A DNA stretch of 64,000 bases from Tateyamaria sp. Alg231-49 (lineage in GTDB: Bacteria; Pseudomonadota; Alphaproteobacteria; Rhodobacterales; Rhodobacteraceae). Location of the stretch: positions 1-64,000 of the forward strand of contig NZ_FRFA01000016.1 of the NCBI RefSeq assembly GCF_900143535.1, in the 5' to 3' direction. Under the pieces are notes generated by a model, which was given only the letters and a program-made list of their open reading frames with translations, made no database searches and was not told where the DNA came from. The position numbers and the translations under genes are program-made. Below are positions 3,294 through 21,885 of this stretch, in pieces (within the stretch, counting starts at the first letter, position 1; every line of letters starts with the position of its first letter).

Positions 3294-6200
3294 TAACCTG
3301 AGTTGGCTGAAGGGTCGTCCTCCTCCGGTAATGAAACAAGCGGTTCATCAGGTGGGAGTTCGATCCCTTCATCGCTGGTCGCGCTGCCTGAATTCAGATC
3401 CGTGGCAGTCGCGGGATCATCCAGCATCGATGGATCCAACATAGGTGCGTCGGTCGGGATGTCAGCATCAACCCCGAGCGCCTCGGTGTAAGGATTGGCC
3501 TGTTCGGCATCCTGTGGCTGATCTGGAGCGTCGGAATGCAGACTGGCTCCAACTGCATCAAGATAGTGGTTAACCGGGTCAATGTGATGGGTAGGAGGTG
3601 GGTTCTCGCCAAGATGCTCGTTGGAGGGCTCGAAGCCTCTGTTATCGTGTCCAGCGGGATCGTCCGCGCTGTCCGCTCTTGTGGCGAGGGACACGTCCAT
3701 TTCGCCGGTCAATCCGAGCCCGGCGGCGGACGGGCCTTGAGCATCGTCGTCAAGAGTGACTTCGAAAATCGGTTCATCGTTACTCGGGGCGTCGTGTTGC
3801 GGTGGTGTTGTCGGTACAATATCAATACCGATCAGGGTCGTGTGATCCACATGATGACCACTGTTGCCATGCACACTTTGCACATTAATGTTGACCTGCA
3901 CATCTGCGTCCGAGGTATGCGTTCCGTGTTGAAGTATATGGAACGTATCGGTGTGATGACCGGATGGCATACCCCCGCCACCGCTCTTGATTACCGCGGA
4001 TTGCGCCCGGTAATCGTATTCGAAATGCCCCGTCTTTGGGTCGATAGTCAGTGTGCCATACTGTCCTTGCAAGGACAGTGCACCACCGTGCCCGTTGTCG
4101 ATCGACCAACCACCAGTTCCGCCGGTCAGAGTACCCGACAGGTGCGTCGTCCCGGAACCATGCACCTGCGTGGCGGTGGGTGGGGTGGGGGCAGCTGTGA
4201 CGTCGAGTGTCGCCGTCGTCGAACTAGTTGAATGGCCGTCAGTGACTGAGATCGTCACTGGAACGTCGGTTTGGCTTGCGCCAGTTGTCGGTGTAAAGAC
4301 CCAGTTGCTGCCGGATTGATGGAAGCTCCCGTATTGAGGATCCACCTGTACATTCGAAATCGATAACTGGTCGCCAGTGTCGACATCGGTCGCATGAACT
4401 GCCGCCAACAAGTCTGCTGCAGACAAGGTCTTGCCTGCTCCCGGCTGCGTGGCTCCAAGATCTCCCGTTTGTACGGCTGGACCATCATTGGTGCCGGTGA
4501 CGGTGATGACGAGGCTCTCGGTGTCGGTCGCGCCTTGCTTGTCTGTTACCGTGACCGGAATCGTCACCTGCTGCGTCGCGCCGGCTGCGAGGTGCTGGTA
4601 GGCGGCGTCGGTCGGATCAAAATTCCAGGATCCGTCCGCGTTCAGCGTGAACCCCGCGGGTGCTGTTTGGCCAAGCGAATACTGTTGCGCAAAAGAACTG
4701 CCATCGACGTCCGTCGCCGACATTTGCCCAGTGACTGCATTGCCATCCTCAGTCGCCGAAGCCGACGCAGAGGCCAAAACCGGAGCATCGTTCCTTCCAA
4801 GCAACTGAACTCTCAGGCTTCCTGTACTGTTCAGCCCATCCGAATCCGTGACCGTAATGGGTATCGAAATTATCGTATGGTCACCATTGTTAAGGTGGCT
4901 ATATGCGGCGTTTGATGGATCAAAGCTGTAACTTCCATTGTTATTCAGGTGGAAGCCCGCAACGGGCGCATTGCTTGTGAAGGTCAATGACGCTGAATCA
5001 TCGTGATCCAAATCACCAGCAGCTATATGGCCGTTGAAGACCTTTTCGCCCTCGAACTTGGTTACGAGATTGCGATAGACGACAGGTGCGTCATTCGTGC
5101 CAGCGATGGTGAAATCAACTGGATGAGTTGTGCCATCTACACTGTGAATGACAAAGCTATCCTTTGCTTCTTCGCCTGTTTTAAGATGGTCAACGATAGT
5201 GTTGGCGAGGTGGTAGATGTACTGCCCATCCGGATTGACCTGAAGGCTGCCCCCCAAAGATCCGGTGTAGGTTTGGAACCCCATATTGGGAAACTGGGAT
5301 TCAGCGGCACCATCCGGATCAGTGACATGAAATTGGCCATAAGCGCTCAGCAATCCATGGTCGCCTACACCGGTTCCAACTCCAACATCTTCTTTTAGCG
5401 ATGCTCCTACACCTGTGATCACAGCAGCATCACCGACTGCGGCCAGGGTCGTCGTCGCGCCTGTATGCGTCACCCCACCATGGGCATCTTTGACGTCATA
5501 GGTGAAGTGGACCGTGCCGTTGTAGTCCTTCTCTGGCGTGAATGTGTAGGTACCGTCCTTGTTGTCCAGGATAGAACCGTGATCCGGATGCAGGTTGGCA
5601 ATGGCCAGCTTGCCGGCATCGTTGGCATCCACGTCGACCGTGTTCCCGAGCAACTGCGCAGAGGTAAGCGTCTGGCGCGTGTCCTCGGTGCCAGGGCGCA
5701 AAACGACCTCGGACGAGCAATAGGGCCGGTCATTGCTGCCATGGATCGTGATCACGATGTCATGGGGGGTACCGTCCTTGGAGTGTACCGTGATCGTGTC
5801 GGTCAGCGTCTCACCGTCGCCCAACTGGTCAATCGCAGTGCCTCGCGTAGTGGGCCGTCCACCGACAAACCGCAAGCCACCGGCGTCCGCATTATAATGC
5901 CAGGACCCATCAGGGTTCAGAAGAAGATCACCGAACTGGCCTTGATAATTGAAACCAATTCCTTTGCCGTCAAACTCGGCTTCCCCTGCGTCAGGATCGA
6001 TTATGGTCAACTGTCCGTCGACTTTCAGCGTCGCCATTCGAAGATGAGCCATGCCGGGTTGGGCATAATCAGGTGACATATCCTGACCTGCGGTTCCTTC
6101 GGTCACGCTCCCGGTATCCACACCGCCAATCACCGCCGCATCGCCGGTCGCGGCCAGCGTCAGAGCGGCCGTTTGTGCAACCGTTCCACCATGCCCATCC

Positions 6201-9200
6201 GTGACCTGATAGCTCAGGGCGACAGGTCCGTTGTAGTTCGGGTCCGGTGTGAAGGTGAAGCCGGTGGCCGCGGCGCCAGAGATGCTGCCATGGCTCGCGC
6301 TGAGGCCGGTGACCGAGAGCGTGTCGCCCGTGTCGATATCGGTCGCATGTTCAAGAAGCTGCGCCGCGGTGATCTGTACCGGCTTGTCCTCGGTGCCACC
6401 CGGCAGCGTGACCGGGCCGCTGACGGCGGGGCCGTCATTGGAGCCTGTCACCGTGATGACGAGGTTCTCGGTATCTGTGGCGCCGGTCTTGTCGGTGACG
6501 GTCACCGGGATGGTGAGCTGCTGCGTCGCGCCCGCGGCGAGCTGCTGGTAGGCTGCGTCGGTCGGATCGAAGCTCCAGGAGCCATCGCCGTTCAGCGTGA
6601 AGCCGGCAGGCGCTGCCTGACCCAGTGTGAATTTCTGCGTATCGCCGCTATCAACGTCCGTCGCTGACATCTGGCCTGAGACCGCGCTGCCATCCTCGGT
6701 CGCAGACGCTGTCGCCGCACTCAGTACCGGCGCGTCATTTGTCCCATGAATGGTGATCTGGATCTGGTGCGTTGTACCGTCCTTGGTCTGAACGATCACC
6801 GTGTCGACCAGAGTGTCTCCCTGCTTCAAAGCCTGAACACGTGGATTGTCGTTGTCGCCATCGTAAACCCAGTGGCCATCGGGGGCGATCGCCAGTGAAG
6901 AGTTCCCTCCCAAACTGGTTGGATAGGATACACGCATCGGAGCACCGACAAATACGGCCTCGCCGCTATCGGGATCCGTAACGGTCAGTCTACCACTGGT
7001 CTGAAGCCACTGCATCCCGCTAATGCGGTCCTCGGTCACACTACCAGTGTCCACACCGCCGATCACCGCGGCATCACCCACGGCGGCCAAAGTCAGAGAC
7101 GCAGTCTGCGTGACTGTCCCGCCATGGCCGTCGGTGACAGTGTAGCTCAGGCTGACCGGGCCGTTGTAGTTCGGGTCCGGCGTGAAGGTGAAGCCGTGGG
7201 CGGCGTCGCCGCTGATCTTGCCGTGGCTGGCGCTGAGGCCAGTGACCGAGAGCGCATCGCCCGTGTCGATATCGGTCGCATGCTCGAGAAGCTGCGCCGC
7301 GGTGATCTGTACCGGCTTGTCCTCGGTGCCACCCGGCAGCGTGACCGGGCCGCTGACGGCGGGGCCGTCATTGGAGCCTGTCACCGTGATGACGAGGTTC
7401 TCGGTATCTGTGGCGCCGGTCTTGTCGGTGACGGTCACCGGGATGGTGAGCTGCTGCGTCGCGCCCGCGGCGAGCTGCTGGTAGGCTGCGTCGGTCGGAT
7501 CGAAGCTCCAGGAGCCGTCGCCGTTCAGCGTGAAGCCCGCCGGCGCCGCCTGGCCCAGCGAATAGGCCTGCGTGTCGCCGGTATCGGCATCTGTCGCCGA
7601 CATCTGCCCCGTCACCCGGCTGCCGTCCTCCGTCGCCGAGGCCGTCGCAGCACTCAGAACCGGCGCGTCATTCGTGCCGTGGATCGTGATCTGGATCTGG
7701 TGCGTCGTGCCGTCGGCAGAGGCCACCCGGTAGGTAGCATGGCCAACCTCGCCCGCGGCCAGCTGCTGGATGGCGGCATTGCTGTTGTCGGTGACATAGC
7801 TCCACATCCCCGCCGAGCTGATATGCAGGCTGCCGCCAAACGGGTCCGAGATCGCGTGTTCACCGAACTGGCTGAACTGGAAATGCTCCTGCGCCGCACC
7901 GTCCGGATCGGTCACGTCGAGGTCGCCGCTCACGACGATGCGGCCGTATTTCAGGTTCTTGTCCTCGGTGGCCGTGCCGGTATCCGTCCCGGTGATCACC
8001 GCCGCGTCGCCGACGGCGGCTAGCGTTGTGGTGGCGCCGGTATGGGTCACGCCGCCATGCGCGTCCTTCACGTCATAGGTGAAGTGGACCGTGCCGCTGT
8101 AATCCGTCTCGGGCGTGAAGGTGAAGGTGCCGTCGCCATTGTCGCGGATCGAGCCGTGATCGGGGTGCAGGTTCTCGATGCTCAGCTTGCCGGCATCGTT
8201 GGCATCGACATCGACGGTGTTCGCGAGCAGCTGCGTGGTGGTGAGCGTCTGACGCGTGTCCTCGGTGCCGGGGCGCAGTACGACCTCCGCCGAGCAATAG
8301 GGCCGGTCGTTGCTGCCATGGATCGTGATCACGATGTCATGCGGCGTGCCGTCCTTGGAATGCACCGTGATCGTGTCGGTCAGCGTCTGCCCCTCGCCCA
8401 GCTGGTCGATCGCCGTGCCGCGCGTGGTCGGCCGAGCACCAGCGTCTGCCAGATGACCGGCATCACCGTAATAGTGCCATTCCCCATTGGCTTTCAGGTA
8501 CAGGTCGCCATAGGTTCCGTGATAATTTATGCCCGGTCGAACCGTGTCAAACTCCGCTTCACCGGCATCGGGATCGAGGATCGTTAATTTGCCGTCCGCA
8601 TAGAGTACGGACCTCTGGAGTGTGGCCAAACCTGGCTGCGCGTAGTCAGGCGACATGTCCACCCCAGCCGTGTTTTCGGTCACATCGCCGGTATCAACGC
8701 CACCGATCGTGGCCTTGTCGTCGGTGCCGTTGATGGAGACGGTGATCTGCTTGGTGGTGCCGTCGATGGTGGAGACGGTCAGGGTGTCGGTGATCTGGTC
8801 GCCTGTCTTCAGCGCCTGCACTGCCGGCTGGCCATTGTCGAGCGCGTAGCTCCAGGTGCCGTCGGGCTGCACGGTGAAGCTGCCATGGGCGCCGGCCGCG
8901 CCGGTCTGCGGCACGAACTGATCCTGCCCCGCATCCGGGTCGGTCACGTCGAGCTTGCCGCCGGTCGAGGTCAGCTTGTCCTCGGTCACCGCGCCGACCG
9001 CCGTACCGGCGATCGTGGCCTTGTCGTCGGTGCCCATCACGTTCACGACCAGTTGGTGGCTCGTTCCGTCCACGCTGTGGATCGTAAAGGTTTCACGCTC
9101 GGTCTGCCTCGAGATCAGCGCCTGAACCGAGGGAGAGGTGTTATCGAGCGTGTAGGTCCAATGACCCGATTGATCGATCTGTAGGCGACCGAAATTTCCT

Positions 9201-10141
9201 CTCAATGTCGAGGCCTGAAAATGCGCCTCGCCCGGATCCGGGTCGACGATCGTCAACCCGCCGGAAACTGTCAGAACACGGTCCTCGGAGGTTGTTCCGG
9301 TGTCGGTTCCGGAGATCCTTGCAGCGTCGGGCTGTGGCAAAACATTGAACGGCATCTGAATCTGTGCCGAGTGACCGTTTGGATCCACGACGGTCGCCGT
9401 CAGATGCCCTGATCCAAACCAGTCGGTTGGGGGCGTCATGGTCAGGTTTTTCAGATCGGTGCCGGGACCGAGGATCCATGTACCGCCTGGGCCAGCATGT
9501 CCCAGGTTCATGATCGTTCCAGGCGGCAACCCAGCGATGGTCACGGTCGATCCGCCGGGTGTGTTGTTGCCATTAGTCACCGAAATTAGAACTGGAACCG
9601 GGCTACCTTCCTTACCGCCGGGGATGAGCCCGGCGATAGCAGGCCCGCTGGGCTGGTTGCTCGACACGATATGGCTCGGCAATTGTCCCGACGCGTGACC
9701 GCCGCTGCCCGGTGACACGTTCGGAATGATCGCGTACCCAACATTCTGACCTGTACCCATGCCGGGCAGGGCATGAGTGAAGCCGGGATGGCCGGCGCCC
9801 GAGCCGCGTGGATGGGCCTGGGGCAGTGGTGCAAGGCCGGACGAGGCCAACCAGTCGGAACCGGGTTCCGCCCCGGGACGACCCGGTTGGGAATGCAATT
9901 CGGAAAGCTCGGCACCCATGTGGCGTGCCAGGGCCGACGCCGAGACCATCAACTGCCGGTTGCCATAACCTCCGCTGTCTCGCGCTCTGCCATCCGGCGC
10001 GGCATGGGAGCCTTCGGTCTGAACCTCCGGAAGTTCACTCGTGTCGGACACAACCCAGGCAAAAACCTCTTCGGACAACTCGTCTCTTTGATCCGCAGTG
10101 GCGCGGGAGGTCTGGGGCTTTCTCGGGTTCTGATCGGACAT
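3293..10141 (-). CDS. Giant VCBS-repeat adhesin, type I secretion substrate
   Basis: A 2282-residue protein with no signal peptide. Residues 1 to about 280 are Gly/Pro/Ser-rich. Then come about seven VCBS-type units, each opening with a motif such as GTDTGTTSED, GGVDTGSVTED or GTDTGTATED and closing with DGTTHQIQITIHGTNDAP. They are interleaved with cadherin-like modules (LPGGTEDKPVQITAAQLLEH, FTPDPNYNGPVSLSYTVTDG). The C-terminal 250 residues are acidic and hold two related motifs, HYLDAVGASL and PYTEALGVD. No RTX nonapeptides are seen. Large Ca-binding-type repeat adhesins of this kind are exported by dedicated ABC/HlyD pairs, and such a set lies directly upstream. ATG at 10141 is chosen because GAGGAG precedes it. 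The stop codon uses the last base of the adjoining IS6 element, so the native C-terminus may be lost. Confidence 0.9.
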   Translation of the reverse strand: MSDQNPRKPQTSRATADQRDELSEEVFAWVVSDTSELPEVQTEGSHAAPDGRARDSGGYGNRQLMVSASALARHMGAELSELHSQPGRPGAEPGSDWLASSGLAPLPQAHPRGSGAGHPGFTHALPGMGTGQNVGYAIIPNVSPGSGGHASGQLPSHIVSSNQPSGPAIAGLIPGGKEGSPVPVLISVTNGNNTPGGSTVTIAGLPPGTIMNLGHAGPGGTWILGPGTDLKNLTMTPPTDWFGSGHLTATVVDPNGHSAQIQMPFNVLPQPDAARISGTDTGTTSEDRVLTVSGGLTIVDPDPGEAHFQASTLRGNFGRLQIDQSGHWTYTLDNTSPSVQALISRQTERETFTIHSVDGTSHQLVVNVMGTDDKATIAGTAVGAVTEDKLTSTGGKLDVTDPDAGQDQFVPQTGAAGAHGSFTVQPDGTWSYALDNGQPAVQALKTGDQITDTLTVSTIDGTTKQITVSINGTDDKATIGGVDTGDVTENTAGVDMSPDYAQPGLATLQRSVLYADGKLTILDPDAGEAEFDTVRPGINYHGTYGDLYLKANGEWHYYGDAGHLADAGARPTTRGTAIDQLGEGQTLTDTITVHSKDGTPHDIVITIHGSNDRPYCSAEVVLRPGTEDTRQTLTTTQLLANTVDVDANDAGKLSIENLHPDHGSIRDNGDGTFTFTPETDYSGTVHFTYDVKDAHGGVTHTGATTTLAAVGDAAVITGTDTGTATEDKNLKYGRIVVSGDLDVTDPDGAAQEHFQFSQFGEHAISDPFGGSLHISSAGMWSYVTDNSNAAIQQLAAGEVGHATYRVASADGTTHQIQITIHGTNDAPVLSAATASATEDGSRVTGQMSATDADTGDTQAYSLGQAAPAGFTLNGDGSWSFDPTDAAYQQLAAGATQQLTIPVTVTDKTGATDTENLVITVTGSNDGPAVSGPVTLPGGTEDKPVQITAAQLLEHATDIDTGDALSVTGLSASHGKISGDAAHGFTFTPDPNYNGPVSLSYTVTDGHGGTVTQTASLTLAAVGDAAVIGGVDTGSVTEDRISGMQWLQTSGRLTVTDPDSGEAVFVGAPMRVSYPTSLGGNSSLAIAPDGHWVYDGDNDNPRVQALKQGDTLVDTVIVQTKDGTTHQIQITIHGTNDAPVLSAATASATEDGSAVSGQMSATDVDSGDTQKFTLGQAAPAGFTLNGDGSWSFDPTDAAYQQLAAGATQQLTIPVTVTDKTGATDTENLVITVTGSNDGPAVSGPVTLPGGTEDKPVQITAAQLLEHATDIDTGDTLSVTGLSASHGSISGAAATGFTFTPDPNYNGPVALSYQVTDGHGGTVAQTAALTLAATGDAAVIGGVDTGSVTEGTAGQDMSPDYAQPGMAHLRMATLKVDGQLTIIDPDAGEAEFDGKGIGFNYQGQFGDLLLNPDGSWHYNADAGGLRFVGGRPTTRGTAIDQLGDGETLTDTITVHSKDGTPHDIVITIHGSNDRPYCSSEVVLRPGTEDTRQTLTSAQLLGNTVDVDANDAGKLAIANLHPDHGSILDNKDGTYTFTPEKDYNGTVHFTYDVKDAHGGVTHTGATTTLAAVGDAAVITGVGASLKEDVGVGTGVGDHGLLSAYGQFHVTDPDGAAESQFPNMGFQTYTGSLGGSLQVNPDGQYIYHLANTIVDHLKTGEEAKDSFVIHSVDGTTHPVDFTIAGTNDAPVVYRNLVTKFEGEKVFNGHIAAGDLDHDDSASLTFTSNAPVAGFHLNNNGSYSFDPSNAAYSHLNNGDHTIISIPITVTDSDGLNSTGSLRVQLLGRNDAPVLASASASATEDGNAVTGQMSATDVDGSSFAQQYSLGQTAPAGFTLNADGSWNFDPTDAAYQHLAAGATQQVTIPVTVTDKQGATDTESLVITVTGTNDGPAVQTGDLGATQPGAGKTLSAADLLAAVHATDVDTGDQLSISNVQVDPQYGSFHQSGSNWVFTPTTGASQTDVPVTISVTDGHSTSSTTATLDVTAAPTPPTATQVHGSGTTHLSGTLTGGTGGWSIDNGHGGALSLQGQYGTLTIDPKTGHFEYDYRAQSAVIKSGGGGMPSGHHTDTFHILQHGTHTSDADVQVNINVQSVHGNSGHHVDHTTLIGIDIVPTTPPQHDAPSNDEPIFEVTLDDDAQGPSAAGLGLTGEMDVSLATRADSADDPAGHDNRGFEPSNEHLGENPPPTHHIDPVNHYLDAVGASLHSDAPDQPQDAEQANPYTEALGVDADIPTDAPMLDPSMLDDPATATDLNSGSATSDEGIELPPDEPLVSLPEEDDPSANSG
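5440..5840 (-). repeat. Internal coding repeat B, copy 1
   Basis: This stretch of the adhesin gene is closely similar at DNA level to 8017-8417 (offset about 2577 bases). Both encode a module with ITIHGSNDRPYCSSEVVLRP or its close variant, followed by the DVDANDAGKL segment. Recombination between the copies would keep the reading frame and change the repeat number. Confidence 0.7.
6190..6640 (-). repeat. Internal coding repeat A, copy 1
   Basis: Nearly identical at DNA level to 7122-7572, offset 932 bases. It encodes the module with GGTEDKPVQITAAQLLEHAT and TENLVITVTGSNDGPAVSGP. The identity is highest from about 6350 to 6580. Confidence 0.75.
7122..7572 (-). repeat. Internal coding repeat A, copy 2
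   Basis: Partner of 6190-6640. Long stretches appear base-identical, which for a coding repeat suggests recent duplication or gene conversion. Confidence 0.75.
8017..8417 (-). repeat. Internal coding repeat B, copy 2
   Basis: Partner of 5440-5840. The protein sequence is almost the same while third-codon positions differ more than in repeat A, so this duplication looks older. Confidence 0.65.
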
Positions 10142-10152
10142 CACGTCTCTCC

Positions 10153-11454
10153 TCACCGCTCGGTCAACGCTAGGTCGAGATTGGTGTAGATGGGTTTCCA
10201 GACATATTGGAACACGGTCTTAGCGCCGGTCTTGATATCGGCCTCGCCGGTCATTCCGGCGATCAATGTGAGGCCGTCCTCGGCATCGCGGAAATGGTCG
10301 CTGTCCAGCTGCACAAGGACTTCGTAGAACGCTGTACCACGCTCATCGACTGCTGTTGTCGGCGAAACTTCCTCGACGGTGCCCGGCAATGCGCCGAAAC
10401 GGCTGTAATCGAAGCTGTCGATTTTCAACCGAACGGGTTGCCCCACCGAGACGAAGCCGACATCGCGCGGCGACAAGCGACCGCTGAAACGATAGCCGCC
10501 GTCGGCGGGAACGATGGTGACGACCATGCCGCCGGGATCAATGACATCGCCGATCGTGTCGTCGGGGATGGACTGAATCACTCCGGCAATGGGTGACCGG
10601 ATCTCCGTCTCCGCGACACGGCTCTCCAGGCCCGCTGCTTCGGCCTGCAAGGCGCGCCTCTGGGAATCTGCTTCTGCAATCCGGCTTCTCGCCTTGGCAA
10701 ACTCGTCCAGTTCGACCTTGGTCAGCGACGCCTGAAGCTCGGCCACCTCAGCCTCGGCGATGGTTCGACGGCCGGCGAGTTGGGCAAGGTCAAAACGATA
10801 CTGTGCCTCCTGCTCTCGCAGTTCCGCGAGCTTCGCACGTGCGCTCAGGCCGCGATTCATCAGGTCCTCTTGAACGGCGCGCTCCTCCTCGGCGACGGCG
10901 ATCTGTTGAATGAGCTGGGGGCGTTCCTCATCAATGGCTGCGATCTCGGCACGCTTTTCCTCGATCTGCGACCCGATCACCGAGCGTTCGGCGCGGATGA
11001 AGGCACGCGTTGCCGCAAGCGCAGCCGTTTCGCGTTCCACGAGATCGTTGAAGTCCTCGGCATGGGCCGAGAAATCCGGCTCCCGCCCCTCCGCAAGCGC
11101 GAGGAGGCGTTCGATCTCAAGGGACAGTCCTGCAATGCGCGCTTCGGCGGCCCGAAGCGCCGATTGCGCTTCCGCCTGATCCAACACAGCCACGATTTGG
11201 TCCGCTTCCACCACTTGACCGCGCGTGACCAGCAATTCGGCCAACTGGCCGCCATGCCGGCTTTCGACCCGCTTCACCTGGGCGATGGGTTCAACTTCCC
11301 CACGCGCCTTGGATATCTCGTCGACAGGCGTGTAGACCATCCAGATCACCAACGCGGTTAGGCCGAGCAGAACGACGATTGCCGCCCGGCGCGTCCAGAC
11401 GAAGGTCGACGTGTCGTACAGGTCGAAAGGTTGATCTCCGCGATTTTCACCCAT
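10153..11454 (-). CDS. HlyD-family type I secretion adaptor
   Basis: A 433-residue periplasmic adaptor (membrane fusion protein). It has a short cytosolic N-terminus, one membrane helix (AAIVVLLGLTALVIWMVY, about residues 25-42), then a biotinyl/lipoyl-type half motif (RVESRHGGQLAELLVTRGQV). A long Ala/Glu/Arg-rich coiled coil follows (about 90-270), then the second half motif and a beta-barrel part (GVIQSIPDDTIGDVIDPGGM). It should link the ABC exporter in the inner membrane to a TolC-like outer-membrane channel, whose gene is not in this window. Its start overlaps the stop of the upstream ABC gene, and its stop is 11 bases before the adhesin ATG, so the four genes form one operon. Confidence 0.93.
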   Translation of the reverse strand: MGENRGDQPFDLYDTSTFVWTRRAAIVVLLGLTALVIWMVYTPVDEISKARGEVEPIAQVKRVESRHGGQLAELLVTRGQVVEADQIVAVLDQAEAQSALRAAEARIAGLSLEIERLLALAEGREPDFSAHAEDFNDLVERETAALAATRAFIRAERSVIGSQIEEKRAEIAAIDEERPQLIQQIAVAEEERAVQEDLMNRGLSARAKLAELREQEAQYRFDLAQLAGRRTIAEAEVAELQASLTKVELDEFAKARSRIAEADSQRRALQAEAAGLESRVAETEIRSPIAGVIQSIPDDTIGDVIDPGGMVVTIVPADGGYRFSGRLSPRDVGFVSVGQPVRLKIDSFDYSRFGALPGTVEEVSPTTAVDERGTAFYEVLVQLDSDHFRDAEDGLTLIAGMTGEADIKTGAKTVFQYVWKPIYTNLDLALTER

Positions 11455-13387
11455 CTCTCTTCTCCTCCGTCAAAGCTTCTGCCTCTGGCTTTTCTGTCTG
11501 AACAGGTCCGCAATAGACGACATTTCCGGCGTCCAGTACGATGGCGATATCGGCGTGCGCCGCGAGTTCCGTGTCGTGGGTCGCAAGGAAGATAGTAGCC
11601 TTGCCTCGCGTTTCGTCGATGAACTTCCCGATCTCGTTCAAGGCATCTTTGCCATTCGCGGGTAGCGGATCGTCGAGAACGAAGAACCTGCTGTCAAGTT
11701 CCGTGATCGCGGACCAGGCTGCGCGTTCCACCTTGGCTTCCGCGGAAAACCCGACGCCGGGCCTTGTTCTGCCTTGCTCCAGCCAAACGCTTTTGTCGCC
11801 ACCGACATAAGCGCAGCGAGCATCGATCTCGTCGGGATCGTACTGGGACATCTGGCGCCCGTTCAGAGTCAGATGCCCAGTTTGTGGGCGGAGATGCCCG
11901 GCGACGAGCTGTAGCAAAGTGGACTTGCCCGACCCGTTCGGCCCCATGATGACGACGACGCCGCCGGGGGCCACATCGAATGTAACGCCGGTGAGGGCGG
12001 GCGGCTGACCGGCTTCATGACGGTAGAACAGACCCTGTGCGGCCACGGCGGGAGCTTCGGGTTCGAGTGCGATCTGGAGATGGGATTCCTGGCCTACCGT
12101 GGGCGCCCGGAGCTGGGTCTCAAGAGAGGTCCAGCCGTTGCGGATTGCCTTTAGGCGCGGGATCGCTAGGAACAGCGATTGCGCCGGGCCGGTGATGCGC
12201 CAGGTGAGCAACATGGTCCCGATCAGCGTGCCGGGCGACAAGTGGCCTTTCAGCGCGAGGTCGATCCCGACGACCAGGGTCACGAGCGCAGTGCCGGATC
12301 CGAGCGTCGTTGCGATTGCCGACTGCGACCCGGTTCGGGTCATGGATCGGTGTGTGTCGCGCGCGCTCGAGCGCAAGGTAGCGTCGAACCGTTGAAGCCA
12401 TTTCTCGCCTAGCCCGGCGCGCTGAATGGCGCCGTTGGCATCGACCAGTTCCCCGATCATCTGCGTGCGTCGCTGGGACTGGCGGACGGCAAACGGGTCC
12501 CTGCCGCCGGTTCCGGCGTTTATCAACAAGCCGAAGCCGAAAAACAGCACGAGGTAGATCGCGGGAATGATCGCCATGCCCCCGCCGACGATCACCAGGG
12601 CGGCAAAGGTCAGCAGGATAAATGGCGCATCATAGATCGCTGCAATATTAGGGGAGGCGAACAGGTCGGCGGCACGCTCGCCCTGCCGCACCTTCGCGAC
12701 AATCGTACTTCCAGAGTTCCCCGCAACGTTTGAAGCCGGCGAACGGAGTGCCTTGCCGGCCAACAATGTCGAGATCTGCCCCGAAAGCGAGGCGTATTCC
12801 GTGGAAGCAAGTCCGGACCGAACACGCCGCATTGCCAGCATCGTGACTAGAACGATCACTGCGCCTGACAACAGGGCCGGAAGCGAATGGGCGGCGCCGC
12901 CCCCCAAAACCTTGTCATACACGGCCATGGTGAAGAAAGGCACCGCCAGCGCGCAGAGGTTGATGACCAGGGATTGCCATGCGACATGCACGAATGCGCC
13001 TCGCGCGCGGGACGAGATATTGGCGTAGGTGACCTTGGATGCTTCGGTTTCGGGAAGCATGCGCAGATAGAGGAGCGGCCCCGCCGGCAGGTGGAGTAGC
13101 CCTGTCTCGTCGTTCTCCGGGAACGCAACGAGATCGCCGTCCCGCCTTGCGACGCCTATCCAGTTGGTGCCGTCTTTCGCAATCAGGGCGCCATCATGAC
13201 CGTCTCTCCAGGATGCAGGTATGCCCTTATGTATGGACGCGTGCACCCCGATCAGGTTGCTGGCGCGTGCCATGTCGGACAGCGATGATGAGAACCCCCC
13301 GAATGCCGCCTCTACGGCCTTATCGGAGTGGCGCCCGTCGAGATATTTTAGAACGGATTCGAGGAAGCCGGCGGCATCAGACATCAT
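11447..13387 (-). CDS. Type I secretion ABC half-exporter with intact Walker A but no signature motif
   Basis: 646 residues. Residues 1 to about 130 look like a C39-like (non-proteolytic) N-terminal domain as in LapB/LssB-type exporters. Several membrane helices follow (about 150-420), then a nucleotide-binding domain. Walker A is canonical (GPNGSGKST, about 481-489), Walker B is FFVLDDP (about 566-572, Asp in place of the usual catalytic Glu), and the H-loop is LATHDTE (about 604). The Q-loop Gln is missing and the helical subdomain that should carry LSGGQ is shortened to an unrelated stretch. Its partner encoded upstream lacks Walker A but keeps a signature-like motif, so the two probably work as a heterodimer. 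ATG at 13387 overlaps the upstream stop as ATGA. Confidence 0.88.
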   Translation of the reverse strand: MMSDAAGFLESVLKYLDGRHSDKAVEAAFGGFSSSLSDMARASNLIGVHASIHKGIPASWRDGHDGALIAKDGTNWIGVARRDGDLVAFPENDETGLLHLPAGPLLYLRMLPETEASKVTYANISSRARGAFVHVAWQSLVINLCALAVPFFTMAVYDKVLGGGAAHSLPALLSGAVIVLVTMLAMRRVRSGLASTEYASLSGQISTLLAGKALRSPASNVAGNSGSTIVAKVRQGERAADLFASPNIAAIYDAPFILLTFAALVIVGGGMAIIPAIYLVLFFGFGLLINAGTGGRDPFAVRQSQRRTQMIGELVDANGAIQRAGLGEKWLQRFDATLRSSARDTHRSMTRTGSQSAIATTLGSGTALVTLVVGIDLALKGHLSPGTLIGTMLLTWRITGPAQSLFLAIPRLKAIRNGWTSLETQLRAPTVGQESHLQIALEPEAPAVAAQGLFYRHEAGQPPALTGVTFDVAPGGVVVIMGPNGSGKSTLLQLVAGHLRPQTGHLTLNGRQMSQYDPDEIDARCAYVGGDKSVWLEQGRTRPGVGFSAEAKVERAAWSAITELDSRFFVLDDPLPANGKDALNEIGKFIDETRGKATIFLATHDTELAAHADIAIVLDAGNVVYCGPVQTEKPEAEALTEEKRDG

Positions 13388-14910
13388 TCGACCCCCTCGA
13401 TCCAATTACTTGGGTTTTCGAGACGCGCGGCATCTTTCAGGCCGTCGCGGAGATCCTCCGACGACGTCTGCACAAGGATCTTAACTTCGTCCGAGTGGGA
13501 CAGAAGGAACCCCGATAGCTTCTTCACGGCATCGACATCGAGGGACGCTTCAGGCGCTTCGAGAATGACCAACCCCGGCCTGCCCGTGAATGCTTGGACG
13601 ATAGCGGCGCGCTTGGCACCGCCATCCGGCAGAGGTCTGCCGGAAGATGCAAGCTCCGTGTCGTACCCGTGGGGAAGCCGGCAAACTAGGCTGTCCAGAC
13701 CGATCTCGCGCGACAGGGTCAGCGCTTTGGGCTCGAGTTTCTTATCCAGACGGGACAGGCAATTCATCAGTCGACCTGTCAAAAGCCGTGGTCGGGCAGA
13801 CACGATCCGAACCGCTTCCGGATCCGGCATGTCGCGGGGCAACTGATTGACTATGGCTTCAAGCTTTTCGGACGCTGTCTGATGTGAAGATGCTTCCAGC
13901 ACCCAAATGCCCCCGCCAGTCGAATTCAGGTACTCAGTCGTCCGGTGTGACGGCTGACGGACGCTCTCTCCACTGGATTCAAGGATCGCCGTCGATTTCT
14001 TCGCCGCAACGGCCGCGGGCTGGGCACGCAGGCCCGTCGCCGCAACGCCGACAAGCTGGGATGCCGCCCGGGAGCCCAGCAACGTGCAGGCTGCAAGGCC
14101 GCCAGTCGTCATCTGTCCTGCGAGCACCTCTCCGGCGCCCAACCAGACAACACCGACGGTCGAGATCAGCGCGCCACTCTGCAAAAGGTCCAACTGGAAG
14201 CTGCTGATGTTCTGCGTCGTTCTGTTTGCCTTTGACTGAGCGCTGCGACTGTGGGTCAAACGGGCAAATGCAGAGCCGAGACTGGCCAGGGTCGTAGTGT
14301 TCGAGGATGTGTTCGCTAGCGCGGTGACACCCGCCTCGTACCGCGCGCCCGCTAGCAGTTCCTGCTCTAGGGCGGATCGATTCCGCGACGCGACCACGAG
14401 GAATGCGATCACTGAGACGGCAGCGACCAGTAAGGGCGCGGCGACAACGATTCCGCCGAGATACGCAATGAGTGCAAGGAAGATGATTGAGAAAGGCGCA
14501 TCGAACCGGGCCAGCATCGTTTGACCGACATTCACATCCCGCGCCTTTGCGGGCGCGGCGGCGAGGAGAAGTGCGTCCTCGCGGCTGTGATAACCTTTAA
14601 GCAGTTGTCGGGCGGTTCGAGACCAAAGCCTGTACTCTTCCAGTGCCGACCACCGCGCAAAGATGCCAGACCTGACGTATCGGAGCAATCCTGAAAACAC
14701 CAACGCGACGACAACCGCCGAGAATATGACGATGGCCGACCCGGTCGACTGGTTCGGCAAAATCCTGTCGTAGACTTGAAGGAGAGCCAGAGGAAGCGCC
14801 AACGTCAGCGCGTTGATTCCCACGGAGAGAAAACCCACAAGAACGCGCGACCCCGGCTCTGAATCTTGAGCGCGACTAAAATGCTCATGTTTTGGTGCGA
14901 CAGTATCCAT
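13384..14910 (-). CDS. Degenerate ABC half-exporter, putative partner subunit
   Basis: 508 residues with an exporter-type membrane domain (about 30-310; SRVLVGFLSVGINALTLALP, VYDRILPNQS) followed by a degenerate ATPase domain. The Walker A position reads EASSHQTAS (no P-loop Lys), the Q-loop Gln is Ala (SARPRLLTG), Walker B is VILEAPEASLD, and the H-loop His is lost. The helical subdomain is recognisable (LVCRLPHGYDTELASSGRPL) and is followed by PDGGAKRAAIVQAF where LSGGQRQRIALARA is expected. It cannot hydrolyse ATP alone by known rules, but it could supply the signature half of a composite site. The first gene of the operon: ATG at 14910 preferred, GTG at 14940 possible. The start lies about 80 bases from IS6 copy 2. 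Confidence 0.85.
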   Translation of the reverse strand: MDTVAPKHEHFSRAQDSEPGSRVLVGFLSVGINALTLALPLALLQVYDRILPNQSTGSAIVIFSAVVVALVFSGLLRYVRSGIFARWSALEEYRLWSRTARQLLKGYHSREDALLLAAAPAKARDVNVGQTMLARFDAPFSIIFLALIAYLGGIVVAAPLLVAAVSVIAFLVVASRNRSALEQELLAGARYEAGVTALANTSSNTTTLASLGSAFARLTHSRSAQSKANRTTQNISSFQLDLLQSGALISTVGVVWLGAGEVLAGQMTTGGLAACTLLGSRAASQLVGVAATGLRAQPAAVAAKKSTAILESSGESVRQPSHRTTEYLNSTGGGIWVLEASSHQTASEKLEAIVNQLPRDMPDPEAVRIVSARPRLLTGRLMNCLSRLDKKLEPKALTLSREIGLDSLVCRLPHGYDTELASSGRPLPDGGAKRAAIVQAFTGRPGLVILEAPEASLDVDAVKKLSGFLLSHSDEVKILVQTSSEDLRDGLKDAARLENPSNWIEGVE

Positions 14911-14989
14911 TCGATTCTTTCGTCTGACCTGAGCGAACACATATATTAAGTTGAAAGACTAAGTTCCAACAAGGCGAAATCAAACCGAG

Positions 14990-15808
14990 AGGTTTTGTCA
15001 GAAAGATTTCGGTTGAGGCGGGCAGGGCGGTTTTGTAGCTTCGTGGGATGACAAAACCCAACCCATTTCGCTACTTCAAAACCAGCCCTTAGATCATCCG
15101 CCTGGCGGTGATGCTGTATGTCCGGTTCCCGCTCTCACTCCGCAACGTCGAAGATCTTCTGCACGAACGTGGCATCGACGTCAGCCACGAAACAGTTCGG
15201 TTCTGGTGGAACAGATTTGGCCCGATGTTCGCGGCTGAGATCCGAAGAAACCGTGTCAGTCGGATGCGATCTTATTCGATCTGGCAGTGGCATTTGGACG
15301 AGGTGTTTGTGAAGATCAACGGTGAGACGCATTACCTTTGGCGGGCCGTTGATCACGAAGGTGAAGTGCTGGAATCCTACGTTACGAAGCGGCGAGATCG
15401 TAAAGCAGCGTTGAAATTCCTCAGGAAATCAATGAAGCGCTATGGCCAGCCTGAAATCATCGTTACGGACAAACTCCGATCCTACGGCGCTGCGATGAAG
15501 GACATAGGTAACGTAACCAAACAGGAAACGGGCCGCTGGGTGAACAATAGGGCGGAGAATTCTCACCTGCCTTTTCGACGACGAGAACGCGCCATGCTCC
15601 GCTTTAGGCAAATGCGATGTTTACAGAAGTTCGCCGCAGTCCATTCTTCGGTCCACAACCACTTCAACCAGGAGCGCCACCTCTACTCACGAGACAATTT
15701 CAAACTAAACCGAAGCGCCGCTCTCTCCGAGTGGCGTCAGCTTTGTTCCGGATAAGTTCACGCGTTCTGCGGTAAACTGAGACTGGTTCGAATTGGTCTT
15801 ACGCACCC
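14990..15808 (+). mobile_element. IS6-family insertion sequence, copy 2
   Basis: About 819 bases in the same orientation as copy 1. The left end contains TTGTCAGAAAGATT and the right end, reverse-complemented, begins GGGTGCGTAAGACC, so its inverted repeats are more diverged than in copy 1. The two copies are clearly homologous along their length but not identical, so they were not produced by one very recent transposition. The flanking bases show no target duplication. Confidence 0.8.
15048..15755 (+). pseudogene. IS6-family transposase with an early in-frame stop
   Basis: The frame starts MTKPNPFRYFKTSP at 15048 and meets TAG at 15090-15092 (codon 15), where copy 1 has GAG (Glu). After the stop, the rest of the protein is open to 15755 and keeps all three catalytic residues (WHLDEVFVKI, VTDKLRSYG, NNRAENSH). 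Translation could restart at GTG 15108, losing about 20 N-terminal residues, so partial function is possible. Copy 1 has the opposite defect: full length with an altered catalytic Asp. Confidence 0.8.
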
Positions 15809-15997
15809 ATTCTGGCCCTTATCCGCCTCGACCCAGATCTCTTCGGATGCGTGACCGCTCAGGGTGATGCCGATGATGCAGAGACCGGACGCCAGCCGGC
15901 GCCGGTCGACTTTGAAATCCTGCGGGATTTTCTCTCACAGTCCCATGAAGATGGCGACGACTCCAGCCCCAGTCATAAGGAGAAACAACATGACTAA
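15809..15997 (+). pseudogene. 5'-truncated ORF upstream of the terminase gene
   Basis: An open frame enters directly from IS6 copy 2 and ends at TAA 15995-15997. It encodes about 62 acidic residues including LIRLDPDLFGCVTAQG and PVDFEILRDFLSQS, without its own start. The stop overlaps the ATG of the terminase gene (ATGACTAA), as in translationally coupled phage genes. It probably is the C-terminus of a phage gene (a small terminase subunit is one option) cut by the IS. The product is not recognised. Confidence 0.45.
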
Positions 15998-17459
15998 CCA
16001 TGACCCAGAAATGATCCACCTCGCTTCTATTGAAGTATGTCGCAACAACTTTTTCCCCTTTGTTTGGAAAGTCTTTGATACGCTCCATCAGGGCAAGGAT
16101 GATAAGTTTGAACCGGCCTGGCATGTCCGCGCGATGTGCCATGAACTCGACAACGTCAGAACAGGCGAAAACAAGCGGTTGGTAATCAACATCCCACCGC
16201 GCTGCCTGAAGTCTGTCACTGTCGCAGTGGCCTATATTGCGTATTTGCTTGGGCACCATCCGAACGCCAAAATCATAGTGGCAAGCTATGGACTCGATCT
16301 GGCACGCAAGCACTCTGAGGATTGTCGCAAAGTGATTGAGACGCCCTGGTATCAGGAAATGTTCCCTGAAACGCGCCTGGCGAAGAAAGGCAATACCTCT
16401 GAAGAGATAAAGACAACCAAGGGCGGCGGCCGAAAGGCGGTGTCTATTGGCAGCGCTGTGACCGGTCATGGCGCGGATTACATCATCATTGACGACTTGA
16501 TGAAGGCCGGCGATGCCAGTTCTGAAGCTGAGCTTCTCAAAGCGCAGGAGTTTATCGAGCGAACGTTATTGTCTCGCTTTGACAATCCCTCGGAAGGCCG
16601 TGTGGTAATGGTGGCGCAACGACTGCATGAAATGGATCCACCGGGTTATCTGCTCGACAAGGAAACCTACCGGCATCTCAATCTTCCGGCGATTGCCGAG
16701 GAGGAAGAAGTTGTGGCGATTGGGCAGGGTAGGGTCCACTGCCGCCAACCCGGCGATCTTCTGTCTCCAACCCGGCTGGACCAGGAGACACTTGATCGCA
16801 TGCGGCGCGAAATGGGCTCAGCCACTTTTAACTGTCAATACCAGCAGAACCCAATCGCGCCTGACGGCTCGCCGCTGCGATGGGAGTGGTTTGGGACTTA
16901 TGACAAGGTAGAGGACAGGTGTTGGTATCAGGCAGTGATCCAAAGCTGGGACACGGGTATGTCCGCTAATCCGTCGGCTGCTTTTTCTGTCTGTACGACA
17001 TGGGGATTCCGCGAAAACAATTGGTACTTGCTTGATGTCTGGAAGGGTCAACTGGATTATCCCGCACTCAAGGCTAAGGCGCTTGCTCTCGTCGAGAGGT
17101 GGGACCCTGAACAAGTTTTGATCGAAGACGCGGCGACGGGCAAACCTCTGTTTGACGAATTATTCCGAGACGATCGTCGCCAATACGAGCGTGTACGTCC
17201 GGACAAGGACAAAGAAACGCGGTTTCAGTCGGCCTGCGCGCCGGTTGAAGAAGGCAAAGTGTTTTTACCATCGGATGCCCTTTGGCTGCCAGCCTTCAAA
17301 CGAGAGCTGCAGTCGTTCCCGCGTGGTCGAAACGATGATCAGGTCGATAGCTTCAGCCAGTTTCTGAATTGGTCAAAAGGTACCGGCGTCTATCGCGCGC
17401 TTGGTCGGGAACATCCACTTTCTATTGAGCGACGAGAGCGACAAAGGCGCAGGCGCTGA
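15990..17459 (+). CDS. Phage terminase large subunit, orphan
   Basis: 489 residues. The N-terminal ATPase part has a Walker A-like segment (VINIPPRCLKSV, about residues 66-77) and Walker B (YIIIDDLMKA, about 165). The C-terminal nuclease part has the expected acidic positions: IQSWDTGMSA, VLIEDAATGKPL and NDDQVDSFSQFL. Terminases cut and package phage DNA into proheads. No portal, capsid or tail gene is present, so this is a prophage remnant or a captured piece. ATG at 15990 is chosen because AAGGAG lies 8 bases upstream and it overlaps the previous stop; a longer frame starting at 15864 has no such signals. Base usage is less GC-rich than the PGC. Confidence 0.88.
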   Translation: MTNHDPEMIHLASIEVCRNNFFPFVWKVFDTLHQGKDDKFEPAWHVRAMCHELDNVRTGENKRLVINIPPRCLKSVTVAVAYIAYLLGHHPNAKIIVASYGLDLARKHSEDCRKVIETPWYQEMFPETRLAKKGNTSEEIKTTKGGGRKAVSIGSAVTGHGADYIIIDDLMKAGDASSEAELLKAQEFIERTLLSRFDNPSEGRVVMVAQRLHEMDPPGYLLDKETYRHLNLPAIAEEEEVVAIGQGRVHCRQPGDLLSPTRLDQETLDRMRREMGSATFNCQYQQNPIAPDGSPLRWEWFGTYDKVEDRCWYQAVIQSWDTGMSANPSAAFSVCTTWGFRENNWYLLDVWKGQLDYPALKAKALALVERWDPEQVLIEDAATGKPLFDELFRDDRRQYERVRPDKDKETRFQSACAPVEEGKVFLPSDALWLPAFKRELQSFPRGRNDDQVDSFSQFLNWSKGTGVYRALGREHPLSIERRERQRRRR

Positions 17460-20070: not shown

Positions 20071-21078
20071 TTAAGCGTCCAAAGTCTCGGCTACGATGCG
20101 GTCGACGCGCGCGCCTGATCCGGCTTCGTCCAGCGGATCGCGGCGCAGGCGGTGACGCAGGGCAACGGCGGCTGTGGCGCGAATGTGTGATGTGGTTAAC
20201 ACCGTGTCGTCGCGGAAGGCGGCATAGGCACGTGCCGCCTTAAGTAGGGTCAATTCACCGCGCAAACCGTCGGAACCCAGGTTAATACATAACGCGGCAA
20301 CTGTCCGTAAAGCACTGTCCGGCGTCTTGAGATCTTTGAGCGTTTGGCGCGCCGTCACGATGCGGTCACGCAAGGCGGCATCTTCGGCCTGCCAGCGCAG
20401 CATAAAGGCGCTGTGATCGTTGTCATAAGCATCGCGGCGCTTGATCACGTCAACGCGGTCGTCGATGTCGGTGGGTGACACCACATCGACCGACAAACCA
20501 AAGCGATCCAGCAGTTGTGGGCGCAATTCACCTTCTTCGGGGTTGCCTGAACCCACCAGCACAAAACGGGCGGGGTGACGGATGGACAGGCCTTCGCGTT
20601 CCACCACGTTTTCACCGGATTGGGCGACGTCCAAAAGCAGATCAACGATGTGATCTTCAAGCAAGTTCACCTCGTCTATGTATAAATATCCACGGTTCGC
20701 TTGGGCGAATAGACCTGGCTGAAACGCCTTTTCGCCTTTTGTTAGAGCCTTTTCAATATCCAAAGCACCTGTCACGCGATCCTCGGATGCGCCAAGGGGC
20801 AGGTCGATGACGGGGGTGGGTACGTCGTGGGTCGTGATGTCGTTGATCTGCGCCCAATCGGGGCAATCTTCAGGCTGCGCGCAGTTCACTGGGCAGTCTT
20901 TGACGACACTAATTGGCGGCAGAAGACCGGCAAGCGCGCGCACAGCGGTGGACTTGCCGGTGCCACGTTCACCAAACACCAGAACGCCGCCGATGGACGG
21001 GTCGATGGCTGTGAGGATCATCGCCTGTTTCATCTGCTCTTGGCCGACGATGGCGGAGAAGGGGAATGGAAGCTTCAT
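20071..21078 (-). CDS. bchI: Magnesium chelatase ATPase subunit I
   Basis: 335 residues. AAA+ ATPase with Walker A FGERGTGKST (about 35-44), the family's cysteine-containing insert (CPVNCAQPEDCP), Walker B YLYIDEVNLL, and sensor LVGSGNPEEGE. It forms the hexameric motor of Mg chelatase, the first committed step of bacteriochlorophyll synthesis. ATG at 21078 is chosen because MKLPFPFSAIVGQEQ is the conserved N-terminus and the ATG overlaps the crtA stop (ATGA). A frame extension upstream exists only inside crtA. Confidence 0.97.
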   Translation of the reverse strand: MKLPFPFSAIVGQEQMKQAMILTAIDPSIGGVLVFGERGTGKSTAVRALAGLLPPISVVKDCPVNCAQPEDCPDWAQINDITTHDVPTPVIDLPLGASEDRVTGALDIEKALTKGEKAFQPGLFAQANRGYLYIDEVNLLEDHIVDLLLDVAQSGENVVEREGLSIRHPARFVLVGSGNPEEGELRPQLLDRFGLSVDVVSPTDIDDRVDVIKRRDAYDNDHSAFMLRWQAEDAALRDRIVTARQTLKDLKTPDSALRTVAALCINLGSDGLRGELTLLKAARAYAAFRDDTVLTTSHIRATAAVALRHRLRRDPLDEAGSGARVDRIVAETLDA

Positions 21079-21782
21079 GCGGTGTCCAATTGTTGTAGCG
21101 GCGACGCGCCGCCCCATGTGCCCGTGTCGGACAGCAGCGCGAAACGGGCGTAAAGCTCTTCGTGAAACCAGCCATCGGCGCGGACGGCTTTGATCGCTTC
21201 GGCGTGGGGCCCAGTGTGGGCGAAATTATGCATGGCGGTGGCGTCGGGCCAGATCGAAAAGGTCACTTGGTGCAGCCATGGCACTTCGCCAATGCCGATT
21301 TTGAAAACGACGTTGGGATCGCGGCCAATCACGGCTGAAATGTTGGGCACACGGCGCCAGAACTTAGTCAAGATGCTGGGCTTGATCGTCGCACGGGTCA
21401 AGGCGGCAAGTGGGCCATTGGTGTTTTGCGCGGTGGCAAGAAACGGGGTCTGGCCGGACCATGAGCCGCGTGTGGTGTCGACGGCCATGAAGACCGTCCA
21501 ATCCTCGACCGCGTGGGCGCGGTAATTCTGGAAGATCGCAGTGTCTTGCGCGGCTTGCGCGGTTGCGGCGTCGGGGAACGTGGCAAGGATCGCGTAAACG
21601 GCGGTGTTTGGGATCGGGGTGAAGCCTTCGCCCGAACCAGAGCCGCACAGCTTCCAAAATCCGATGTCGGGAGTGCGTTTGATCGCCCCGCGTGCAAGGC
21701 CCATCATTGAGAATGCCCAAAGGCGGGATCGAAACGATCCAAATCGGAAGAAGCTGAGGCTGACGACCTGCGTCATGGGCAT
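21075..21782 (-). CDS. crtA: Spheroidene monooxygenase
   Basis: 235 residues. It carries family stretches such as MGLARGAIKRTPDIGFWKLCGSG (split here at position 20), YAILATFPDAATA and VPWLHQVTFSIWPDATAMH. CrtA oxidises spheroidene to spheroidenone with O2, giving the ketocarotenoid typical of aerobically grown roseobacters. It is first in the crtA-bchI-bchD-bchO operon and diverges from crtI; the space between them holds two PpsR-type operators. Confidence 0.95.
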   Translation of the reverse strand: MPMTQVVSLSFFRFGSFRSRLWAFSMMGLARGAIKRTPDIGFWKLCGSGSGEGFTPIPNTAVYAILATFPDAATAQAAQDTAIFQNYRAHAVEDWTVFMAVDTTRGSWSGQTPFLATAQNTNGPLAALTRATIKPSILTKFWRRVPNISAVIGRDPNVVFKIGIGEVPWLHQVTFSIWPDATAMHNFAHTGPHAEAIKAVRADGWFHEELYARFALLSDTGTWGGASPLQQLDTA

Positions 21783-21796
21783 AGATTCCTAAGATA

Positions 21797-21814
21797 TGTC
21801 AAGTTATCCTGACA
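21797..21814. promoter_or_regulatory. PpsR/CrtJ operator, crtA-proximal
   Basis: TGTCAAGTTATCCTGACA fits TGT-N12-ACA with extended TGTC/GACA arms. It lies 15 bases upstream of the crtA start. In Rhodobacter, CrtJ/PpsR binds paired sites of this form and represses crt, bch and puc genes in oxygen. Confidence 0.8.
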
Positions 21815-21852
21815 CATATGCCTTGCAATGGGAAGATGCGCGGCGCTAGAAT

Positions 21853-21870
21853 TGTAAGGTAAAGTTTACA
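21853..21870. promoter_or_regulatory. PpsR/CrtJ operator, crtI-proximal
   Basis: TGTAAGGTAAAGTTTACA is a TGT-N12-ACA site with TGTAA/TTACA arms, 16 bases before the crtI start. Its centre is 56 bases from the crtA-side site, so paired or looped binding over both promoters is possible. Confidence 0.78.
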
Positions 21871-21885
21871 TTACATTGGAATCAA

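Follow-up and report, generated by a model that had tools for sequence, protein, structure and literature searches.

Two adjacent half-exporters with complementary motif losses

The window analysed here is a stretch of 64,000 nucleotides from Tateyamaria sp. Alg231-49 (Rhodobacteraceae; contig NZ_FRFA01000016.1, positions 1 to 64,000). It contains a four-gene operon on the minus strand in the order B, A, HlyD-family periplasmic adaptor and VCBS/cadherin-repeat adhesin, and all operon features described below lie on that strand. B and A encode two different ATP-binding cassette (ABC) proteins, each probably forming one half of the same bacterial protein exporter. A (11447-13387) is a protein of 646 amino acids with an N-terminal domain at the place of the C39-like domain, a six-helix membrane domain and a nucleotide domain without the helical subdomain. 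B (13384-14910) comprises 508 amino acids and combines a six-helix membrane domain with a nucleotide domain devoid of ATP-binding residues. The ATG start of B is backed by relatives; its open frame extends to a GTG at 14940. The stop codon of B and the start codon of A overlap in an ATGA (13384-13387).

The original prediction, made from the letters of the window, held that A keeps Walker A, a Walker B aspartate and the H-loop histidine and has lost the Q-loop together with the helical subdomain. All of these features are seen both in the window and in the clade described below. Walker A reads GPNGSGKST (11918-11944) and the H-loop IFLATHD (11573-11593). The Q-loop glutamine is lost from its place in AYVGGDKSVW (11783-11812), and a linker of 32 codons (11687-11782) replaces the helical subdomain and the signature. 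The Q-loop block and Walker B are separated by 32 residues in A, whereas three further type I exporters encoded in this genome have 70 residues there, and the match of the Pfam ABC_tran profile to A is limited to profile positions 1-74 of 137. The prediction was right about the Walker B aspartate in FFVLDDP (11666-11686) but has to be corrected in two respects, as the catalytic glutamate is an aspartate and the D-loop aspartate is also gone from A. Lacking the Q-loop glutamine and the signature, A is not a complete ABC nucleotide domain in one chain.

For B, the predicted loss of Walker A, the Q-loop, the Walker B acids and the H-loop, and the retention of the helical subdomain with a signature-like PDGGAK, are likewise seen. 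No lysine is present at the Walker A place SSHQTASE (13867-13890; ASSHQTASE with the preceding residue), the glutamine is lost from the Q-loop segment VRIVSARPRLL (13780-13812, including VSARP) and the histidine from the H-loop place ILVQTSS (13459-13479). The counterpart of the shortened stretch of A spans 69 residues in B, retains the helical subdomain and carries the signature LPDGGAKRA (13606-13632). The Walker B place and the D-loop are found in LVILEAPEASLD (13537-13572), where the Walker B acids are replaced by glutamate and alanine and the D-loop reads SLD; the kept D-loop adds to what had been predicted. Pfam ABC_tran gave no match to B at E up to 1, and some NCBIfam models match the second half of B through the C-terminal, signature-bearing part of the model (e.g. 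CydC positions 442-526). With only the signature and the D-loop left, B does not form a complete ABC nucleotide domain in its chain either.

Structure prediction is consistent with both proteins being exporter halves. AlphaFold2 models of the single chains, built on shallow input alignments (21 and 26 rows), have a mean predicted local distance difference test score (pLDDT) of 80.4 and a predicted template modelling score (pTM) of 0.70 for A, and of 79.4 and 0.61 for B. The top Foldseek matches of these models are HlyB/D, PrtD and PCAT1, and 181 of 230 residues of the A nucleotide domain align with MJ0796 at 2.2 Å. In the models, a nucleotide domain is predicted to follow six transmembrane helices in each half, the layout of Type IV-fold (HlyB-like) exporters. 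TIGR03375 (LssB-type) is the best family for both proteins, with scores of 220.2 bits for A and 141.2 bits for B that remain below its cut-off of 693.

Conservation of the pair in a clade and in its wider family

Homologue searches, in which 8000 candidates were scored for A and 7997 for B, returned at least 258 homologues of A at E up to 1e-20 (120 listed) and at least 106 of B. A scan of genome contigs using the A alignment identified 59 loci, 27 of which (L019-L045) form a clade of 28 pairs together with the window. Clade genera include Shimia, Falsiruegeria, Pelagimonas, Pseudovibrio, Salipiger, Roseibium, Stappia and Aquabacter, with Acetobacteraceae and others also represented. The complementary loss pattern is present at all 27 further loci and is therefore neither chance nor a sequencing slip. 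In A, the Walker lysine, the Walker B aspartate and the H-loop histidine are each conserved in 28 of 28 clade members. The catalytic glutamate is found in none of them (aspartate in 24, asparagine in four), the Q-loop glutamine and the fourth-position glycine of the signature are equally absent throughout, and the D-loop aspartate occurs in three. In B, the signature glycine is present in 28 of 28 and the D-loop aspartate in 27, the exception being L041, where the B frame is disrupted past Walker B. The Walker lysine and the catalytic glutamate are missing from every B, and the Walker B aspartate and the H-loop histidine are each left in two.

The P-loop pattern GxxxxGK[ST] occurs in 28 of 28 A and 0 of 28 B proteins, meaning that the whole pattern is gone from B, beyond a loss of the lysine alone. 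An alignable A-loop is absent from B in 19 of the 28 pairs; a looser P-loop pattern allowing arginine is found somewhere in B of L026 and L027. Twelve of 182 columns in the B nucleotide domain are invariant (27 pairs, L041 excluded), among them the signature glycine and the leucine and aspartate of the D-loop. The stretch from the Q-loop block to Walker B in A measures 9-52 residues across the clade compared with 68-76 in the other 67 pairs of the wider set described below, the sole outlier being L191 with 53 residues and a frame cut by the contig end. Threonine occupies the place of the catalytic glutamate of A in two further homologues, P0028 and P0038. Taken together, the clade counts suggest that A retains the elements working within the site on its own side and B those reaching the partner's site.

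Both genes are under purifying selection. The ratio of nonsynonymous to synonymous substitution rates (dN/dS) lies between 0.05 and 0.25 in each of nine segments compared across five genomes (window, L020-L023), these values being rough since dS was near or above 1 and up to three of ten comparisons per segment were saturated and dropped. Within A, the nucleotide core has a dN/dS of 0.05 and the linker with the Q-loop place the highest value, 0.238. The former Walker A lobe of B is at 0.25 and its helical and signature part at 0.14. The many lost motifs, and an IS6-type element some 80 bases before B, might suggest that the two genes are decaying relics. This is extremely improbable given the dN/dS values in all nine segments and the clade-wide invariance of the same residues. 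Selection and the 27 further loci led us to reject both a relic and a sequencing error.

B is located directly upstream of A at 27 of 27 clade loci, and a HlyD gene follows A at the same number. Across 198 sampled family genomes, clade A (E below 1e-250) is found in the same four as B (E up to 1e-30); six further genomes of this sample carry more distant A-like genes. A wider set of 95 pairs was assembled from the window, L019-L047 (29 loci), the fused L048, L051, L068 and 62 of 64 additionally fetched regions. L082-L087 were replaced by the longer L233-L238, and L078-L081 (the window itself or presumed near copies) as well as L229 and L232 (no B) were left out. Thirty-four of the fetched regions were mostly chosen where both genes already showed, so adjacency is biased there. 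Two further groups of 24 and six regions were chosen on A, and B was present in 23 and six of them, respectively. Nine of the 95 pairs (L048, L180, L221-L226 and L228) are B-A fusions with a single frame of 1318-1484 codons, a share that is inflated because some of the 24 regions were chosen for an open frame of more than 1300 codons. The fused chains possess Walker motifs in both halves and fall at two places of the tree, L180 being separate from the other eight. Strict adjacency at the clade loci and the coincidence in four of 198 genomes show that the two genes occur together with the same losses. Together with the fusions of distant members, this supports the original prediction.

These data also bear on the choice of partner. 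The genome encodes three more type I exporters, all with Walker motifs and with the signature LSGGQ (two) or LSIGQ (one), and A might partner one of these ABC subunits or homodimerise, with B serving as a regulator. Such an arrangement is very improbable, as B adjoins A at every one of the 27 loci, the two form one chain in nine distant members and A itself lacks a signature. A homodimer of A was rejected because the signature glycine is found in 0 of 28.

Across the 95 pairs, the Walker A lysine is kept in both subunits of 45, in A only in 48, in B only in none and in neither subunit in two. Homologues in which either protein occurs alone with a full motif set, which the original prediction had named as the evidence that would contradict it, are seen in part only. 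There are pairs and fusions with near-complete motif sets, 45 of the 95 pairs keeping both lysines, as well as ordinary lone exporters, 17 of 18 lone loci showing the P-loop, LSxGQ and DE. All of them lie outside the clade. We read the near-complete pairs and fusions as the ancestral state and the lone exporters as an outgroup. In a tree of membrane domains only, a quick build with warnings on several long branches, the 28 clade pairs group as one clade with a support of 99-100. The nearest rows are L047, two Shewanella pairs and six other pairs, in which the B Walker lysine and the A signature glycine are lost and the length of the A helical subdomain is kept. Fewest-changes counts on this tree (L041 and L191 not counted) amount to seven changes in B and one in A for the Walker lysine, 15 and seven for the H-loop histidine, nine and four for the catalytic glutamate and ten and seven for the Q-loop glutamine. 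For the signature glycine, 12 changes are counted in A and three in B, and for the D-loop aspartate nine and one. Counted in this way, the changes fall mostly on one site, the second site made of the B P-loop and the A signature.

A candidate single composite ATP site

We interpret A and B as obligate partners in a heterodimeric type I secretion exporter whose only ATP site is a composite one, and assign this reading a probability of about 0.72. It starts from the observed motif content, strict pairing, lopsided loss and purifying selection. A and B would dimerise in the ordinary ABC arrangement. The one site would combine the Walker A, Walker B and H-loop of A with the signature and D-loop of B, and the B signature loop would close over ATP bound to the P-loop of A. 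By analogy with the general architecture of ABC dimers, the B signature is expected to face Walker A of A. The original prediction of one composite site gains support from the 95 pairs, which never show a lysine kept in B and lost in A, and the kept D-loop of B fits the split-site argument. In the transporter associated with antigen processing (TAP), the D-loop described as the one that matters belongs to one half, ABCB2 (PMC7756269, available in part). The second site would be nonexistent in the pair, so no stationary ATP would be held there. Closure would reach the membrane part mainly through the retained helical subdomain of B and intracellular loop 2 (ICL2) of A, and the other route, from the A nucleotide domain to the ICL2 of B, would be abandoned. 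As the least certain step, slow hydrolysis aided by the H-loop histidine and the aspartate would reset the pump. Export of the adjacent VCBS adhesin by the pair would also involve the neighbouring HlyD protein and a TolC-like protein from another place in the genome.

In exporters of this fold, the second coupling loop, ICL2, of each half docks onto the nucleotide domain of its partner, as seen in structures such as Sav1866. Because A has lost the subdomain that forms the docking groove, the ICL2 of B is expected to be free to drift and that of A is not, a prediction that was conceived prior to computing and was not registered. Within the clade, ICL2 has a mean pairwise identity of 0.353 in A and 0.212 in B, a B/A ratio of 0.60, compared with 0.91 in ten near relatives and 1.34 in the 45 pairs with both lysines. 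Among the five main segments of the B membrane domain, ICL2 is also the least conserved in the clade. The stronger statement that ICL2 is the single most relaxed window holds in part only. It ranks 17th lowest of 233 in a sliding comparison, and the lowest 50-column window (columns 720-769) shares 39 columns with ICL2 (731-780). We regard the drift as support for, not proof of, the geometry of a single-site dimer.

TAP1/TAP2, TM287/288, TmrAB and BmrCD likewise consist of two different halves with one better and one degenerate site, and A and B share with them two different half-exporters encoded together (27/27 adjacent, 9/95 fused). An ordinary heterodimer of the TAP or TM287/288 kind, with the second site holding a structural ATP, would have the same layout of two differing halves and uneven sites, to which many of the 67 non-clade pairs are similar. 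In the available portion of PMC7756269, weak sites are stated to bind MgATP with an affinity comparable to canonical ones, and the degenerate site of TAP-type exporters still binds ATP. The same portion describes yeast Pdr5, where every motif of one site is altered, the Walker lysine and the signature among them, and where a site can matter even though it has no Walker lysine. Pdr5 differs from A and B in being one chain with reverse domain order, in exporting drugs and in carrying single-residue changes. In the pair described here, by contrast, there is no P-loop, no facing signature and the subdomain is deleted. Judged by sequence, the P-loop of a degenerate site appears to be missing, as B has neither the lysine nor GxxxxGK[ST] in any of 28 cases and the alignable A-loop is missing in 19, and A offers no signature loop to close over the site of B. 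A second site of the ordinary degenerate type is therefore quite improbable.

What the single site does with ATP is a separate matter. The predicted composite site is supported; ATP hydrolysis is less sure than the prediction implied, given the lost Q-loop glutamine and the exchange of the catalytic glutamate for aspartate or asparagine. An exporter gated rather than fuelled by ATP would bind the nucleotide, open the channel and scarcely hydrolyse, with the pull coming from adhesin folding outside the cell. Such a gate would suit the 24 aspartates and four asparagines at the catalytic place, the missing Q-loop glutamine, the threonine in P0028 and P0038 and the repeat adhesin next door. The H-loop histidine, which is important for hydrolysis, is nevertheless invariant in 28 of 28, the B D-loop is kept, and an aspartate at the catalytic place seems compatible with slow hydrolysis in degenerate sites (PMC7756269, in the part available). 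We give a pure gate a minor chance.

Several observations weigh against the composite-site interpretation. The missing Q-loop glutamine of A, a residue expected to work in just this site, does not fit it, as usual hydrolysis would have kept this residue, and combined with aspartate or asparagine in place of the catalytic glutamate it makes efficient hydrolysis at the surviving site doubtful. The B signature differs from LSGGQ. As Pdr5 has a weak site without the lysine and weak sites bind MgATP, lysine loss alone does not exclude binding. In the 20 pairs outside the clade that keep the lysine in A only, the B residue is arginine in eight, a mild change. Losses in the reverse direction also occur among the 95 pairs, with A having lost and B kept the H-loop histidine in four, the catalytic glutamate in four and the Q-loop glutamine in three, and with B having lost and A kept the signature glycine in one and the D-loop aspartate in one. 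The one-way rule is strict for the Walker lysine only, and for the lysine of B the non-independent sequences provide only four independent contrasts when starred branches only are considered; a sign test would need more, and no p-value is given. The two pairs with neither lysine, L237 and L238, are LssB-like and come from the same family of genomes as the window; their use of ATP is doubtful. The rank of ICL2 in the sliding comparison belongs with these points.

Cargo, genomic setting and relation to known exporters

The HlyD-family periplasmic adaptor (10153-11454) scores 303.5 bits against TIGR01843, above the cut-off of 208.65. Candidates for the TolC-like outer membrane factor are present in the genome as seven PF02321 matches at four places, one of which holds an internal stop; none lies within the window. 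With an adaptor at the locus and outer membrane factors elsewhere, the components of type I secretion are at hand. The presumed cargo is the VCBS/cadherin-repeat adhesin (3293-10156), and an adhesin match is found at 26 of the 27 further clade loci, in three of them on the opposite strand. The adhesin of the window has no RTX nonapeptides, a search for GGxGxD returning none. Of 27 clade adhesin frames, 26 are without this motif and L035 has one; 20 of the 27 are truncated at a contig or locus end. A different motif, EExF[GA]W, is located near the adhesin N-terminus in 26 of 27 cases (window and L019-L044), the remaining frame, L039, beginning in a masked stretch. Outside the clade, the L047 adhesin has it and those of Shewanella L046 and L068 do not. 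All seven complete adhesin ends carry Y-x-x-[AS]-x-G twice, about 90 and 65 residues from the end, and a terminal glycine; two such copies were obtained in 0 of 2000 shuffles of the window adhesin end, for a motif defined post hoc. This C-terminal motif may represent a secretion signal of a cargo class without RTX repeats.

Two insertion sequence (IS) elements of the IS6/IS240 type, at 2475-3293 and 14991-15808, lie in the same orientation on either side of the four-gene operon and are 81% identical across 823 bases, the second being located about 80 bases ahead of B. An element of this type also precedes B at L019. A terminal inverted repeat was looked for at 14 IS6/IS240-type matches and was not found at 13. 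The IS-flanked operon may travel as a unit, and such mobility would fit its patchy presence in four of 198 family genomes. A terminase-like frame (Terminase_6C; 15864-17459), perhaps a phage remnant, adjoins the second element. The window further contains a Mg-chelatase subunit and a frame for a flavin-dependent oxidoreductase at 20071-23439, which presumably mark a photosynthesis gene cluster adjoining the operon.

Two related ABC proteins, RtxB and RtxE, also occur in the Vibrio MARTX system, where both are reported necessary for secretion (PMC3034196, seen in part). Compared by description only, that system differs in its operon order rtxBDE and in its cargo. For the BapP locus of Pseudoalteromonas tunicata, the available part of PMC12153261 describes an adhesin with tandem ABC genes next to it, whose products were modelled as a heterodimer together with an adaptor; it mentions an additional LolD-like ATPase and no motif loss. 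The HlyB, PrtD and LssB/LapB-type ATPases share the membrane domain and the fold with A and B but are single-gene exporters with complete motifs. Neither this pair nor an ABC exporter half missing the helical subdomain was described in the open-access literature that we searched. Heterodimers with a degenerate site and MARTX systems with two ATPases are thus known, and the loss of the whole P-loop pattern together with the facing signature is a new and extreme case.

We consider it somewhat better than an even bet that this lineage reduced the ABC engine from two sites to a single one shared between two subunits, with the subdomain of the other site deleted and its docking loop set free. Export of giant adhesins would then consume at most one ATP per cycle and lack a stationary second ATP of the sort present in known degenerate exporters, perhaps with ATP serving as a gate. 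Why many ABC exporters retain a site that scarcely hydrolyses ATP is an open question. The functional advantages of degenerate sites are called unclear and stationary MgATP is seen as a hub between the halves (PMC7756269, in the part available). If our interpretation is true, a natural exporter whose second site is physically absent would show what that site is not needed for. The related pairs form a graded series, from near-complete and fused pairs through loss of the B P-loop and the A signature to loss of the A subdomain, whose steps are separately testable. The helical subdomain and the coupling loop would then be dispensable together, which could help to map force transfer in protein secretion.

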